DNA from: Halarchaeum acidiphilum MH1-52-1
Lineage (GTDB): Archaea; Halobacteriota; Halobacteria; Halobacteriales; Halobacteriaceae
NCBI RefSeq assembly: GCF_000474235.1
Contig: NZ_BATA01000023.1
Coordinates: 1-33,014 of the forward strand
Direction of reading: 5' to 3'
DNA: 33,014 bases
In this document: in pieces, positions 286 through 15,637 of the stretch
Layout of the letters: the number at the start of each line of letters is the position of its first letter
Numbering within the stretch: position 1 is the stretch's first letter
Position numbers and translations under genes: made by a program
Notes under the pieces: generated by a model
The model's database searches: none
Told to the model about the DNA's origin: nothing
What the model saw: only the letters and a program-made list of their open reading frames with translations

Positions 286-2672
286 TCACCGCTGTTCTTC
301 GTCTTCGTGTCGCGCGCGTTCCGCGCGCGCCGCGTCGCCGCCCCACGCCTCGCAGAGCGGTTTCAGCGCGTCGCCGAACGCGCGCATCGCCTGCCCGGTC
401 GAGTGATAGCCCAGCGAGTCGGCGACGGCGTCCCACGAGCGACACTGGAGGAGCTTCAGGACGAACAGCCGCTCGCGCCTGTCGGCCTCGTCCGCCGCGT
501 CGCCCGCGTCGTCCCCGTCGCCCGCGACGAGCGAGGGGGCGTCGTCGCGGACGAGCGCGCAGACGGCGAGTCGGCGGAACGGCGCTGGATCGACGCTGTA
601 CATCGCCGAGCCGTAGGCGGAGCCGGCGACGACGCGCCACCGGTCGTCGGAGAGGGCGGGCGCGGGCGTGGCGTCGCAGGCGGCGAGCGCGGCGCGCGCG
701 ACGTCCGGATCGAGGTCGCGGAGGGCGTCGACGAGCACGTCCGCGATCCGGTCCGCGAACCACGACTCGTGGCGGGCGGCGAGCGCTTCCCCGTCGGCGC
801 TCAGCGGATCGAGCATGAGGACGGAGTACTCGCCGCTCGTGTCGTTGCGCGTCGTCGAGAGGTGGACGGTCGAGAAGCCGTTGCGCGCCCAGAAGCGAAG
901 CAGGTCGGCCGTCGCGCCGTAGCCGACGCCGAGCCAGTCTCGATCCCCGAACTCCGCGCGGACGCCGTCGAGGAGCGCGGATCCCAGCCCGCGAGAGCGG
1001 GCGGCGTGGTGGGTTGCGATGCGGACGACGCGCGTGCCGACGGGTTCGGCGGCACGCTCGTCGCGCAACTGGCTCGTGAGGACGTCCGGGAGCATGTTGC
1101 CCTTCACGCGTCTCCCGGTGTACATCGCCTCTCGGGTATCGGCGTCGAGACCCCCCTCGCGCGCGAGGAGGGCGACGGCGACGACGTGGCCGTCGTGTCG
1201 GAGGGCGCGCACCGAGAGGTTCGGCGCGTCGAGCAGCCGGGCGAGGTCGTCGGGTTCGGTGCGGTAGTGGGCGGCGACGAGGAGACCGAACGCCTCGCGG
1301 AGCAGAGTCTCGTCGGCGGCGAGCGTCTCGCTGTCGAGGGCGTCGTACGTGCAGGTCTCGGGGGTGGCGTCGGCGACGAGCGGCGCGACCGGTGGTCGGG
1401 CGTCGAGCAGGAGCGCGCGGAAGGCCCACACCTCAACGGGGTCGCCGGCGGCGTACCGGATCGGGTCGTCGAGGCGGACGTCGGTGACGTCGATGTCGCT
1501 CTCGGCGAGGACGTCGCGGAAGCGGACATCGAACCCGCGGCCCGCGCCCTCGTAGCCGTGGACGGTCGTGGTGAACGCGACGGCGTCGGCGTCGAGGCAG
1601 CGTTCGAGGAGGCGGACGGGGAGCGCGGCGGCCTCGTCGACGAGGAGGACGTCCGCCTCGTCGGTCGCATCGACGGCGTCCGGGGGGCGCGCGTAGCGGA
1701 TCTCGCCGCCGGCGTCGAGAGCGAGTCGCGTGTGTTCGGGACGCCGGTGGTCGACGTCGAGATCGTCGAGCAACGCGTCGGCGCGCTCGTAGAGTTCGCG
1801 GACGCCGCGGAACGACGGCGCGGTGACGCGGACGTCCAGTCCGTCGGCGGCGAGGCCGGCGGCGGCGAGGCCGGCGGCGCTCGTCTTCCCGCGGCCCCGG
1901 TCCGCCTCGCAGACGACCGCGCTCCCGGGATCGCGGAGCGCCTCGAAGGCGCGGACGGCGTCGACCTGATCGGGGGTGAGACAGGCCTCGTACGCGGCGG
2001 CGGGGAACGCGTGCTCGTCGGGGACGGACGGGGCGGGCTTCGCGCGGCGCGGGGCTGGATGCGTGAGTCCGTCGTCCTCGATCGTGACACCGTTCGGGGC
2101 GTCGCCGCGCCGATCGCCGTCGCTCGAATCGGTGAGGGAGACGACGGCGACGCCGCGGTGCGCGCGGAGAGTGGCGACGAGACGCGCGCGAAAGCGGCCC
2201 GCCACGTCCCGACGTCGAACGGGGGGACGGCCATGCTCGAATCGAACTCGTCGCGGTGCTCGGGCCAGTCGTCGAGGGGCGGCGTCACGAGGACGAGGAG
2301 TCCGCCGCCGTCGACGGCGCCGGTGATGCGGCCGAGCGCGTTCGGGCGACACTCGTCGCGGGCGTCGTAGACGATCGCGTCGCGCGTGGTACCGAGGAGG
2401 TCGCCGGTCCCGCGAGGGTCGAGGCGCTCGCAGCCGAGACCGTCGCGGTGGCCGACGAGCGTCGTCGCCGCGCGCTCGATGTCGGCGGCGTCGAGGGCGG
2501 TCGCGGCGGCGGCGAGACCGTTGTCGCGACCCGGCTCGCGGTCGCCGTCGCGGTCCTCGATGTCCGCGTCCGGCCCGTTCCCGCCCGGTCCGTCGGCGAG
2601 GACGAGCAGGCGGCGCTCGTTCGTCTCGCGGGCCTCCGCGCGGAGCCGACTCGCGACCTCCGAGAGCGTCAT
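286..2672 (-). CDS. tmcA: tRNA(Met) cytidine acetyltransferase TmcA, frameshifted once near 2208
   Basis: TmcA makes N4-acetylcytidine at the wobble base of elongator tRNA-Met, using acetyl-CoA and ATP to drive an RNA helicase module. The repaired protein is about 795 residues, normal for the family. It has an N-terminal DUF1726-type domain beginning MTLSEVASRLR, a Walker A motif DRGRGKTSA (about residues 258-266), a helicase acidic box LLVDEAAALP (about 342-352), the conserved VKGNMLPDVL, and a GNAT acetyl-CoA site IATHHAARSRGLGSALL (about 552-568). The N-terminal part (2672 to about 2208) and the rest are in different frames. One extra C at 2208-2210 joins PPFDV to GDVAGRFRARLV. I infer a sequencing deletion, because the rest of the protein is unbroken. 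The start is ATG at 2672, where the family begins. It is divergent from rpl7ae. Confidence 0.93.
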
Positions 2673-3744: not shown

Positions 3745-4227
3745 ATGAGCCACCACGACGAGCGGACCTTCGTCATGGTCAAGCCCGACGGCGTCCAGCG
3801 CGGTCTCATCGGTGAGATCGTCGGCCGCCTCGAGGACAAGGGCCTGAAGATGGTCGGCGGGAAGTTCATGCAGATCGACGAAGCGCTCGCCCACGAGCAC
3901 TACGGCGAGCACGAGGACAAGCCCTTCTTCGAGGGTCTCGTCGAGTTCATCACCTCCGGACCCGTCTTCGCGATGGTCTGGGAGGGCGCGGACGCGACGC
4001 GACAGGTCCGCCAAATGATGGGCGCGACGGACGCCAAGGAGGCCGCTCCCGGCACCATCCGCGGTGACCTCGGGAACGACCTCGGGCACAACGTCATCCA
4101 CGGCAGCGACCACGAGGACGAGGGCGCCAACGAGCGCGAGATCGCTCTCTTCTTCGACGAGGACGAACTCGTGGACTGGGACGCCGACGCGGCGACGTGG
4201 GTCTACGAGGACGCCGGCGACCACTAA
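3745..4227 (+). CDS. ndk: Nucleoside diphosphate kinase
   Basis: Transfers the gamma-phosphate between NTPs and NDPs through a phosphohistidine, keeping (d)NTP pools in balance. The protein is 160 residues. It has the N-terminal [12 protein letters not shown], the middle [10 protein letters not shown], and the active-site loop ending NVIHGSD with catalytic H119. The C-terminus [16 protein letters not shown] carries the acidic haloarchaeal form. It is the last gene of the rpl7ae-rps28e-rpl24e-ndk operon, a usual archaeal arrangement. A pyrimidine-rich stretch just after the stop (about 4235-4255) may end transcription. Confidence 0.97.
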
Positions 4228-4315: not shown

Positions 4316-4324
4316 TGTAAATAG
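4316..4324 (+). promoter_or_regulatory. TATA box for a leaderless GTG start at 4346
   Basis: TGTAAATAG is centred 26 bases before GTG 4346. This spacing puts the transcription start on the start codon and is the main reason for taking 4346 as the gene start. Confidence 0.6.
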
Positions 4325-4345: not shown

Positions 4346-6377
4346 GTGACGCGGGCAGAGCCGATCGAGTTCGAGGAAGACGAGGGGACAGTACGGATAC
4401 ACGATCGAGTGATGGACACGGCGTGTCGTGTCACCGCCGATGGATCGATCGATCCGTCCGGGTGTCGAGCGCGCGCTTTCTCTTCCCGGTCGATGCCGCC
4501 GTCGCCTTCGAGACGTCGTCGCTGTCGATGCCGGCGAACGCGGGCGCATGCGTTCGCACCGAGCAGGGGGACATCGAACGGCAACTCACCGAGGAGAGGG
4601 TGTCGTTCCCGCGCGGACGTACTACCTCGACGTCGAGGCGAACTGCAAGGTCTACGTGAAGGTGTTCGACGCCGCCTTCGAGGCGATGACGGAACACCAC
4701 CACGGGCCGGACGCGGCGACCGTGGCGTTCGACGAGCCGGCCCGGGTGGCCGTCGGTGCGCGCTCGCGACACGAGCGGCCGGCCGGGGCGATCACGGTGC
4801 CGGATGATCCGTCGGCGCTGCTGGAGGCGCTGCCCTATCTCGCGTCCGCGGTGAAGGAGTGGTCGCCGGAGCGCTCGTGGCCGACGCTGCGCGGGCACCC
4901 GCCGCGGATCGAGCGCGGTGACGAACTCTCCGTTCCCGCGTCGCTCTCGCGTCCCGAAACGGGCGTGACGCTCGCCGTCCCGGCGACCTACGAGTCGCTG
5001 TACGCGGTCGCGCCGCTCGCGTACTATCTCGGCGCGGACGTGGTCGAGGCGAGAGAGCCGGAACTCCGCCTCGACAACGGATATCACCGATCGCTCGGCG
5101 ACGGTGCGGTCTCGACCGACGAGGCGACGGCGCTCCTCGAGCGCTGTTTCTTCCTCGATTCGCTCGTCCGGACGGCCGGCTACTACGACATCCCGCGACA
5201 GGAGTACGAGGCGGTCGCGGGCGCGCTCTCCTTCTACCCGCCGTCGGTGTACGAGCAATCGGTCGTCGAGCAGCTCATGGAGTACCTCGAAGCGCCGCGC
5301 TCGGCGTTCGACGAGTACGTCCCGCGGGCGCGGTACGCGGCCGTCCTGCGCGACGAGCCGACGGACGCGCCGCTCCTCCCGTTCCTCGCTCGCGACCTCG
5401 TTCCCGTCGCGGTCGGCGACGATCGGGGCGCGACGTCGCGGGCGCTCGTCACCGGTCACAGCGCGCCGCCGATCCCGGACGGCGACACTCGACTCTCCGT
5501 CGCGGGGTTCGAGCACGCGCTCTCGAAGCCGACGCGCGACGTGACGGCGGAGCGAATCGCCCTCCTCGGCGTCGACGACGCGGCTCGGGAGTCGCTCTCG
5601 ACGGTGTTGATCGGCGAGGAGCACCGGGACGTCGACGAGCCGTTCGAACTCGACGCCGCGGCGCCGACGACGGCGGCCGTCCGGGACGCCCTCGAGAGCG
5701 AGTACGGATTCGTCCACGTCGGGGCGCCGCTGACCGACGCCGGGTTCGCGTGTCGTGACGGCGTCCTCGATCCGGCGAGCCTCCACGCGATCTCGGCGCG
5801 CGTCGTCTCGGTGGTCGGGGACACGGACGTCGGCGGTGCCGTCCTCGATGCGCTGATCGAGCGCGGGGCGCGTGCGGGCGTGGCGTCCCCCTCGTTCGAT
5901 GCGCGCGCGGTCGGGCGAACCGTTGGACGCTTCCTCTCGGGCGCGCCGATCGAGCGAGCGGTCGGGTGGTCGGGCGCCGACGGGCCGTTCCGGTTCGCGG
6001 GCGACGTCTCGGCGTGTCCGGTCGTGCTCGGCGGCGGCGTCCCCATCCCGCAGTACGTGATCCGCTCGTCGGGGTTCGATCGCCACCGACTGTGGACTCG
6101 AGCGTGGTGGTCCGGGTTCAACGTCGCCGGCGGCGTGACGGCGCTCTACGGCGAACACGTGGCGGACCTGTATCGCCTCGTCGGCACCGAGGTCGAGCAG
6201 CCGCCATCGCTGTCGAGCGAGGAGGTCGCGGCTCTGTGCAACGAGCGCGACGCCGTCTACGTGCTGAACGGCGACGTGTACCAACACGGTCACGGGGTGA
6301 CGCCGGACGAAGTGCGCCAGTCGGCCGCGCGAGCGCTCGCGGATCGCTCGTCGGAGGGGACTGACACCCAGTTCTGA
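4346..6377 (+). CDS. Haloarchaeal CHAT-like protein with degenerate catalytic residues; two frameshifts
   Basis: A haloarchaeal family protein of about 677 residues after repair; its function is unknown to me. The N-terminus is a beta-rich region (IEFEEDEGTVRIHDR, then FLFPVDAAVAFET) and the middle contains PTLRGHPP and APLAYYLGADVV. The region from about GFVHVGAPLTDAGFACRDGVLD to FLSGAPIERAVG has the layout of a CHAT (caspase-like) domain. Where related haloarchaeal proteins, from memory, have a catalytic His (as in IGHC) and Cys (as in LNACGS), this one has VGAP and VVGDT, so it looks inactive. Reading breaks at GGG 4460-4462 and GG 4615-4616; one added G at each joins DPSG-VSSARFLFPVD and FPRG-TYYLDV. 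The GTG start is supported by a TATA box at 4316-4324. No partner gene is evident: ndk is upstream and GTP cyclohydrolase III follows on its own promoter. Confidence 0.7.
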
Positions 6378-6415: not shown

Positions 6416-7201
6416 ATGGACGTATCCGTGACGAACGCACAGGTCACCCTCGTCCAGTTGGACAACTACGGGCCGTGGACGGTGACGCCGGAGCCGCGCC
6501 GCGAAGCGGACCTCCAGACCATGCAGTCGCGTCTCTACGCCGACCTCTCGCAGTTCTTCGGCACCCGCGACGGCTACGTCTTCTTCACCCGCTTCGACAA
6601 CATGATCGCGGTGACGAACGGCATCGACCGAGCGGCCCACGCGCGCCTCCAAGAGTCGCTGCGGAACCGCTACCCCGTCACCGTGAGCCTCGGCATCGGG
6701 GCGGGCGCGAACCCGGCGGACGCGCTCGTCGACGCCACCGCGCACCTGCAGGCGGCGGGAAGCGCACAGGACGCCGAGCGCCGCGAGGTGCTCGCCGGCG
6801 ACCCCCTCGACGACGACGAGCGCACCGACGACGACGTCCACATCGCGCACTTCGACGTGAACGATGCGACGGGCAAGTACACGGACGAACTCGACGCGTT
6901 CTCGACTTTCGTGCGCATCGAGCAGGGATACGCGTCGCTGATGCGCGCCCTCCACGACGACCACGACGGGCTCGCGTTCTTCGTCGGCGGCGACAACGTC
7001 ATCGCGCTCGTCCCCGAACTCGCCCGTGAGACGTACGAAGCCGTCATCGAGCGCGTCCGCGAGGAGGCCGATATGTCGCTGAAGGTCGGCGTCGGCGCGG
7101 GCCGCACCGCGACGGACGCCGGGATGGCCGCCAAGCACGCACTCGAAGTCTGTCGCGAGGACGCCACGACGGTCGAGGGCGACGTCGCGATTCGAAATTA
7201 A
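6416..7201 (+). CDS. gch3: GTP cyclohydrolase III
   Basis: Archaeal GCH III opens the GTP ring to give the formylamino-pyrimidine nucleotide FAPy and pyrophosphate, the first step towards riboflavin and coenzyme F420 chromophores. At 261 residues it is the usual length. It has two ferredoxin-like halves related to nucleotide cyclases: VTLVQLDNYGPWTVTPEPRR with GYVFFTRFDNM, and later FDVNDATGKYTD with FFVGGDNVIA. The FDN and GGDN turns are the cyclase-type metal sites. The ATG at 6416 has a TATA-like AAAACCGATAA about 25 bases before it, so the message is probably leaderless. The protein serves the same cofactor route that RibL (27719-28150) completes. Confidence 0.93.
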   Translation: MDVSVTNAQVTLVQLDNYGPWTVTPEPRREADLQTMQSRLYADLSQFFGTRDGYVFFTRFDNMIAVTNGIDRAAHARLQESLRNRYPVTVSLGIGAGANPADALVDATAHLQAAGSAQDAERREVLAGDPLDDDERTDDDVHIAHFDVNDATGKYTDELDAFSTFVRIEQGYASLMRALHDDHDGLAFFVGGDNVIALVPELARETYEAVIERVREEADMSLKVGVGAGRTATDAGMAAKHALEVCREDATTVEGDVAIRN

Positions 7202-14904: not shown

Positions 14905-15637
14905 TCAGTCCCGCCGGACGTCGTGTTCGAGGGTGCCGACGCCCTCGATCTCGGCCTCGACGCGATCGCCGTCCTCGAGGGGACCGACGCCCTCGGGCGT
15001 GCCCGTGATGATCACGTCGCCTTCTTCGAGCGTCATGTACTGGGTGATCTCCGCGATCAGCTCGGGCACGGAGAAGATGAAGTGTTCCGTGTTCGAGGAC
15101 TGGCGCGTCTCGCCGTTCACGCGGAGTTCGACGTCCGCGCCCTCCGGGACGTGCGCGGGATCCGCGAGCACGGGACCGAGCGGGCACGATCCGTCGAAGG
15201 CCTTCCCGCGCACCCAGTTCTGTTCTCTGTCCTGATCGTCGCGATTCGAGACGTCGACGGCGGCGGTGTAGCCCGCGACGACGTCCATCGCGTCCGCCTC
15301 CTCGACGTGCCGGCACTGCTCGCCGATCACCACGCCGAGTTCCACCTCGTGCTCGACGTTCTCCTTCCGGCCGGAGCGTCACCGTGTTCCCGTGGCCCGC
15401 GACGGTGTTCGGCGGCTTCAAGAAGAGCAGCGGCCGGTCGGGCACGTCCTCGCCGCGCTCCTCTGCGTGCTTCGCGTAGTTGCGCCCGACGCAGACGATC
15501 TTCGACGGCTCGCACGGCGCGAGGATCTCGACGTCGTCGACCGCGTAGGAACGCCCGCCGAAGGAGACGGTCCCGTCGTCGTGGTACTCGCCCTCGCGCA
15601 CTGCGCCGGCCTCGTCGCGGAATCGAACGTGTCGCAT
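14905..15637 (-). CDS. Fumarylacetoacetate hydrolase family protein; two lost bases near 15365-15374
   Basis: A metal-dependent FAH-fold enzyme, about 244 residues after repair. Family members cleave C-C bonds of acylpyruvates or fumarylacetoacetate, or tautomerise or decarboxylate; the substrate is unknown. Signatures are IVCVGRNYAKHAEE, LFLKPPNTVAGHG, ELGVVIGEQC, VSNRDDQ, NWVRGKAFDGSCPLGP, and ITGTPEGVGPL. The N-terminal and C-terminal parts are in different frames. Adding one base to the TT at 15365-15366 and one to the GG at 15373-15374 (plus strand) yields TVTLPAGKENVEHEVELGVV, just what the family shows. This argues for two base-call deletions. ATG 15637 begins MRHVRFRDE, the usual start. 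Confidence 0.9.

Follow-up and report, generated by a model that had tools for sequence, protein, structure and literature searches.

Introduction

Why would a haloarchaeon keep a protease-like protein whose catalytic residues are gone? The question is raised by a gene at positions 4346-6377 of the window, the whole stretch of 33,014 nucleotides that was analysed. A preliminary description took its product for a CHAT-like protein that had lost both catalytic residues. In protease families, members that have lost their activity often prove to be regulators. In the open-licence text of PubMed Central, we found no paper that combines CHAT with pseudoprotease, none that describes dyad-less CHAT proteins in haloarchaea, and no account of a conserved dead CHAT clade.

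The gene, its neighbours and its reading frame

The gene in region 4346-6377 comes from Halarchaeum and shares 78% identity with its counterpart in H. rubridurum and 73% with that in H. nitratireducens, the nearest named genomes. From left to right, the genes are tmcA, L7Ae, S28e, L24e, ndk, the pseudo-CHAT gene, GTP cyclohydrolase III and dinB, and the order around the pseudo-CHAT gene is identical in three other Halarchaeum genomes. The gene has a GTG start at 4346, 118 bases past ndk. The features of the locus are as follows.

3745 to 4227, plus strand: ndk, the upstream neighbour, after the L7Ae, S28e and L24e genes; context common to four Halarchaeum genomes
4318 to 4323, plus strand: TATA-like TAAATA, about 26 bases 5' of the GTG start; consensus match only
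4346 to 4718, plus strand: N-terminal part, predicted mostly beta strands, corresponding to residues ~1-125 of the H. rubridurum orthologue; spread over three frames (tblastn and model)
4447 to 4617, plus strand: stretch between the two frameshifts (tblastn of intact orthologues)
6416 to 7201, plus strand: GTP cyclohydrolase III, the downstream neighbour; context common to four Halarchaeum genomes

The gene had been credited with its own promoter, and this is plausible. The TAAATA has GTAAATA/GTAAGTA counterparts at the equivalent position of H. rubridurum, H. nitratireducens and genome G002, and it is probably a leaderless promoter of the pseudo-CHAT gene.

The region had also been described as one gene. 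Homology does run along it, but it holds no single open frame. In tblastn searches with intact orthologues, three frames carry the homology (4346-4453, ~4447-4617 and 4608-6374), and the window copy contains two frameshifts, near 4450 and 4610. The longest frame, which has the CHAT motifs, is 4614-6374. Each orthologue is one open frame, about 660-700 residues long, and those of G001-G003 are intact. The two frameshifts would suit a gene in decay, with the window copy as a pseudogene, the dyad having been lost by drift and the frameshifts being the end stage. However, tmcA of the same window, the tRNA(Met) cytidine acetyltransferase gene (298-2672, minus strand), is also frameshifted: it shows a frame change near 2215 relative to two intact orthologues, which is probably an assembly indel. 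As two separate genes are broken by indels while their same-genus orthologues are whole, an assembly error is favoured. Judging from these sequences, the frameshifts in the window copy are likelier to be assembly indels than marks of a pseudogene. The source assembly is a draft (165 contigs, 89.5% complete). We left the window sequence unrepaired, and our functional statements rest on intact relatives. Genes in unannotated contigs were called by a composition-based script, and some starts may be wrong.

Two other observations concern the window. GTP cyclohydrolase III has further matches to GGDEF-like models (PF17853, 41 bits) and, with a score under the cut-off, to a minimal CRISPR polymerase model; these matches probably reflect shared ancestry and nothing more. 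On the minus strand, a 146-residue open frame at 14905-15345 resembles the C-terminal part of a fumarylacetoacetate-hydrolase-like protein and is possibly a frame-broken gene.

Both catalytic residues are replaced

In frame 4614-6374, the motifs come in the order F-V-H-V-G-A-P-L-T-D-A-G-F-A-C-R-D-G-V-L-D, V-S-V-V-G-D-T, GARAGVAS and IERAV. This is the layout first described (HxxG, D-G-x-L-D, G-x-x-A-G-x-A-S, IERAV). Our alignment reference was a dyad-bearing paralogue of the same genome (L044), which carries FIHFIGHITEDGVRCRDGTLD and ILNGCRSY. Against this paralogue, Gly-His has become Ala-Pro and Cys has become Asp in the window protein; the loss of the catalytic His and Cys, with A/P and G/D at their sites, is thereby confirmed. 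The protein can be divided as follows.

4719 to 5393, plus strand: conserved core, residues ~126-350 (H. rubridurum numbering), with GARSxHxRP, KEWSxERSWPTLRGHPP, APLAYYLGA and the clade signature
5544 to 6026, plus strand: pseudo-CHAT domain, residues ~401-560, predicted caspase-like fold, dyad lost (alignment, profile and model)
5724 to 5729, plus strand: Ala-Pro replacing the catalytic Gly-His, with Pro at the His site at 5727-5729 (alignment)
5820 to 5822, plus strand: Asp replacing the catalytic Cys (alignment)
6027 to 6374, plus strand: C-terminal alpha/beta tail, residues ~561-676, with the clade-typical S574, H580 and G613 and the VRxSARRAL end

The same loss is found in many relatives. 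The family alignment holds 106 full or nearly full proteins: 53 members of a dyad-less clade, one further dyad-less protein (L027) and 52 dyad-bearing proteins. G-H and N-[AGS]-C are present in all 52 dyad-bearing proteins, both residues are absent in the other 54, and not one of the 106 has just one of the two. In the His column of the clade, Pro stands in 39 of 53 proteins. Neither His nor Cys occurs at either catalytic column in any of the 53, and the residue in the Cys column is highly variable.

Could the protein instead be a cryptic enzyme whose active site has moved or is of another kind? The clade has a conserved Ser and a conserved His in its C-terminal tail (S574 86%, H580 80%), but these lie outside the CHAT pocket region and are not invariant. 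Within the CHAT region, no substitute His or Cys reaches 80% conservation among the 53 proteins, and nothing suggests that the dyad has moved. Together with the variability at the Cys site, this makes a cryptic enzyme highly improbable.

The CHAT assignment rests on paralogues and predicted fold

Assignment of the window protein to the CHAT family stood as far as fold and homology to paralogues are concerned, but not by direct profile match. The window protein matched no Pfam, NCBIfam or PADLOC model, and neither it nor its dyad-less relatives matched PF12770. Dyad-bearing paralogues do match PF12770 in the right region (L045, 24.8 bits; G002, 26.8 bits; cut-off 24); a further one, L099, reaches 20.7 bits, below the cut-off. 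We use the CHAT label for the window protein because of these PF12770-matching paralogues and the predicted fold.

A profile made from the C-terminal halves of dyad-bearing proteins alone found the C-terminal part of the window protein at E = 7e-10. With E < 1e-3 as the limit, the same profile also detected 27 of the 53 dyad-less relatives, compared with none of 1,060 shuffled sequences. Chance is therefore excluded as a source of the CHAT likeness. When the C-terminal parts were compared profile against profile, they matched with 99.5% probability over 251 columns. Sequence searches of solved structures gave no match with the dyad-less alignment, and with a mostly dyad-bearing alignment they gave a weak match to 8tl0 only, at the expected position (E = 0.81).

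For the dyad-less H. rubridurum orthologue, AlphaFold gave a model (pLDDT 91.2, pTM 0.91) whose best solved matches are SAVED-CHAT 8tl0 (E = 8e-7), separase and gingipain K; the alignment behind this model included dyad-bearing rows, so the agreement in fold is not fully independent. For a dyad-bearing paralogue, the model (pLDDT 83.4) has matches to SAVED-CHAT (2.5e-7), gingipain R and separase and, weakly, to Craspase TPR-CHAT (8d9g) and procaspase-3. These models predict that the dyad-less protein keeps a caspase-like fold of the CHAT/separase/gingipain kind.

The dyad-less proteins form one widespread clade

The conserved but dead form that the preliminary description proposed is far broader than one gene. 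The 53 dyad-less proteins form one clade (SH-aLRT 100) on a long stem of 0.55 changes per column. This tree was built on N-terminal columns only and excludes the CHAT columns, which prevents the damaged domain from drawing its bearers together. The clade was recovered again (100/100) in a mixture-model tree of 58 rows. The clade spans Halarchaeum, Halobacterium and other genera in that family group, Halorubrum, Halobellus, Halolamina, Haloparvum, Halovivax, Natronobiforma and further order-level relatives. Members with intact frames occur across at least four family-level groups. A profile of the dyad-less proteins detected 66 genes without internal stops in 60 of the 292 genomes of the class, all at 558 bits or more. 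The next match scored 488, and we read this gap as the border of two groups. On this tree, the dyad was probably lost once, in the ancestor of the haloarchaeal clade.

One dyad-less protein is placed among the active members (L027:472-2550, genome G013), and it has one of the eight residues of the clade signature described below. The AU test does not reject a position with the dyad-less clade (p = 0.19), which would allow a common loss. From its placement and signature, a later separate loss is likely. In another class of the phylum, outside Halobacteria, L145:4040-6100 (G328) also has both residues gone, with R and T/D at the sites. L145 and L027 are possibly independent losses.

The dyad-less family duplicates in place. 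Tandem dyad-less pairs whose copies have clearly diverged are found in three genera (L033:7859-11909, L034:7489-11693 and L036:3308-7543), and genomes G002, G008 and G009 have tandem copies.

Relaxed constraint on the CHAT segment, undiminished constraint on the core

Sequence comparison shows that constraint is relaxed on the dead CHAT segment and undiminished on the N-terminal core. Median pairwise identity in the CHAT-like segment is 0.227 among dyad-less proteins versus 0.480 among dyad-bearing ones, while in the core (residues 126-350) it is 0.553 versus 0.502. In close Halarchaeum orthologue pairs, dN/dS is 0.20-0.28 for the core and 0.27-0.28 for the CHAT-like segment, far from neutral; in a more distant Halarchaeum pair it is not low.

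The clade also has a signature of its own in the core: E172, L243, R285, Y288, Y298, P299, P300 and E313 (H. rubridurum numbering). At least seven of these eight residues are present in 53 of 53 clade members, versus at most one in 52 of 52 dyad-bearing proteins. In the model, most of them are located on the helices of residues 258-316 or close by. Other charged residues of the core are common to dyad-less and active members (R140, H143, R177, R183, D272 and R276). In the tail, the clade has likewise gained S574, H580 and G613 compared with active members, and the VRxSARRAL end, an extra C-terminal helix motif, is absent from dyad-bearing relatives.

These data bear on the idea of a decaying gene. 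The CHAT segment has drifted, and degraded or split copies exist: a dyad-less copy in G053 (L149:3395-4327) lacks the whole conserved core and keeps the first ~50 residues and the C-terminal part, and a copy in G027 has a split frame. However, the intact frames in other family-level groups, the purifying selection and the invariant new signature lead us to reject a pseudogene reading for the clade as a whole. Decay is very unlikely, the indel in tmcA included in this judgement. A signature of its own, a conserved core and purifying selection therefore point to a new job and no dying gene. On this evidence and the predicted fold, the gene is a retained, refashioned pseudoprotease.

Genomic context of the two groups

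Dyad-less genes are solitary or in tandem, with housekeeping neighbours in Halarchaeum and lineage-specific ones in Halorubrum. The neighbourhood proved constant in the four Halarchaeum genomes, but we found no neighbour that the dyad-less clade shares across genera. The Halorubrum neighbours were considered as partners and are explained as lineage synteny.

The dyad-bearing genes differ in this respect. Of 36 dyad-bearing loci, 13 have a DUF7504 (PF24336) gene no more than three genes away, versus 0 of 41 dyad-less loci, and we reject DUF7504 as a partner of the dyad-less form. The two groups are therefore found in different contexts. The DUF7504 genes are mostly directly upstream on the same strand (L094:5885-6679, L099:5990-6685, L111:5848-6600, L124:6003-6701 and others). 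DUF7504, of which the open-licence text of PubMed Central holds no mention, looks like a functional partner of the active CHAT form.

A lower-scoring relative of the dyad-bearing type is present in 59 of the 60 genomes with a dyad-less gene; as ~92% of genomes hold the family, this is only slightly above background and the co-occurrence is weak evidence. G093 (Halorubrum-type) is an exception: beside its dyad-less gene, a search at E <= 1e-20 gave no dyad-bearing one. It speaks against strict dependence on active paralogues and hence against an obligate regulator, unless the gene is missing from an incomplete assembly.

A link to defence had also been suggested. CHAT proteases elsewhere act in CRISPR-linked defence (PMC10028731, PMC11417357), and tandem copies in several genomes would suit an accessory or decoy part of an anti-virus or cell-death system. 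However, the window protein and five relatives and neighbours had no match to PADLOC models at E <= 1, there was no match in 50,697 phage records that would indicate phage origin, and the neighbours are housekeeping or lineage-specific. We recognised no CRISPR genes in the neighbourhoods examined, and Pfam gave no match to a SAVED or TPR region. The defence link is unsupported for the dyad-less clade by PADLOC, phage records or neighbourhoods, and we consider such a role quite unlikely.

A model for the dyad-less protein

We propose that the gene encodes an ancient, still selected CHAT-type pseudoprotease that lost its dyad once in an ancestor and acts by binding rather than cutting. This is our best explanation, and we think it has a better than even chance of being correct. 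In our model, the core with its signature-bearing helices (residues 258-316) would be a candidate surface on which a partner or ligand docks. The dead CHAT half may be kept mainly as a structural or occupancy domain.

The likeliest single partner, although well short of an even chance, would be the active CHAT paralogue or paralogues of the same cell, because 59 of 60 genomes hold a relative of the dyad-bearing type. The dyad-less protein might restrain or titrate them in the manner of a pseudocaspase. Alternatively, the partner may be an unrelated protein or a small ligand; the likelihood of a ligand sensor or of some other partner is almost as high. The preliminary description had named a sensor, a decoy or a scaffold as possible roles. 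Taken as a full alternative, a ligand sensor or structural protein outside protease control, with a vestigial CHAT half and a core that would bind either a small molecule or a partner other than CHAT, is possible but the less probable reading. Conservation is concentrated in a core rich in charged residues common to active members, the genes are solitary amid housekeeping genes, and G093 manages without an active paralogue. Yet the core is equally conserved in active members and so may be part of the CHAT machinery, and no ligand-binding family matched.

Returning to the pseudoprotease that we favour, a stronger version would make the dead clade dedicated regulators of the active CHAT proteases in the same cell, as an archaeal parallel to control by pseudocaspases. 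This is conceivable, but we regard it as unlikely. The regulator idea is directly testable, as the dead clade has been placed on a tree, has its own signature and coexists with active-type paralogues in nearly all of its genomes. If it were true, the active paralogues would be candidates for a haloarchaeal caspase-like activity that is still without a gene: such activity was reported in Haloferax volcanii, although clear homologues of caspases were said to be missing from archaeal genomes (PMC3615174). We suggest dyad-bearing family members as gene candidates worth testing for this activity. No H. volcanii member was identified here; H. volcanii gave no PF12770 match, which is also true of most members of the family, and no Haloferax was among the plasmids listed by the search.

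Comparison with known systems

The closest relatives are the dyad-bearing haloarchaeal CHAT paralogues, several per genome, which in plasmid records are annotated as 'hypothetical protein', 'caspase family protein' or 'CHAT domain-containing protein'. They share the full-length architecture, an alignable core, the CHAT-like domain and the C-terminal tail. They differ in that G-H and N-[AG]-C are kept, the CHAT segment is conserved twice as strongly, the eight-residue signature is absent and 13 of 36 adjoin a DUF7504 gene.

Among solved structures, the SAVED-CHAT CRISPR effector (8tl0) is the best fold match of both the dyad-less and the dyad-bearing model. It has a SAVED sensor and belongs to CRISPR, whereas the window protein has another N-terminal region, no CRISPR link and no dyad. 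Craspase TPR-CHAT (Csx29) shares the CHAT fold, and the dyad-bearing paralogue matches 8d9g; the dyad-less protein differs in having no TPR region, CRISPR neighbour or dyad.

Separase and the gingipains, of clan CD, match the fold over more than 300 columns. In these proteases, a non-catalytic caspase-like half precedes the catalytic half. Their own catalytic half is active, whereas that of the dyad-less clade is dead. Last, pseudocaspases such as cFLIP are catalytically dead members of a protease family retained beside active ones. The dyad-less protein differs from them in having no death-effector domains and in belonging to another lineage of the caspase-like fold.
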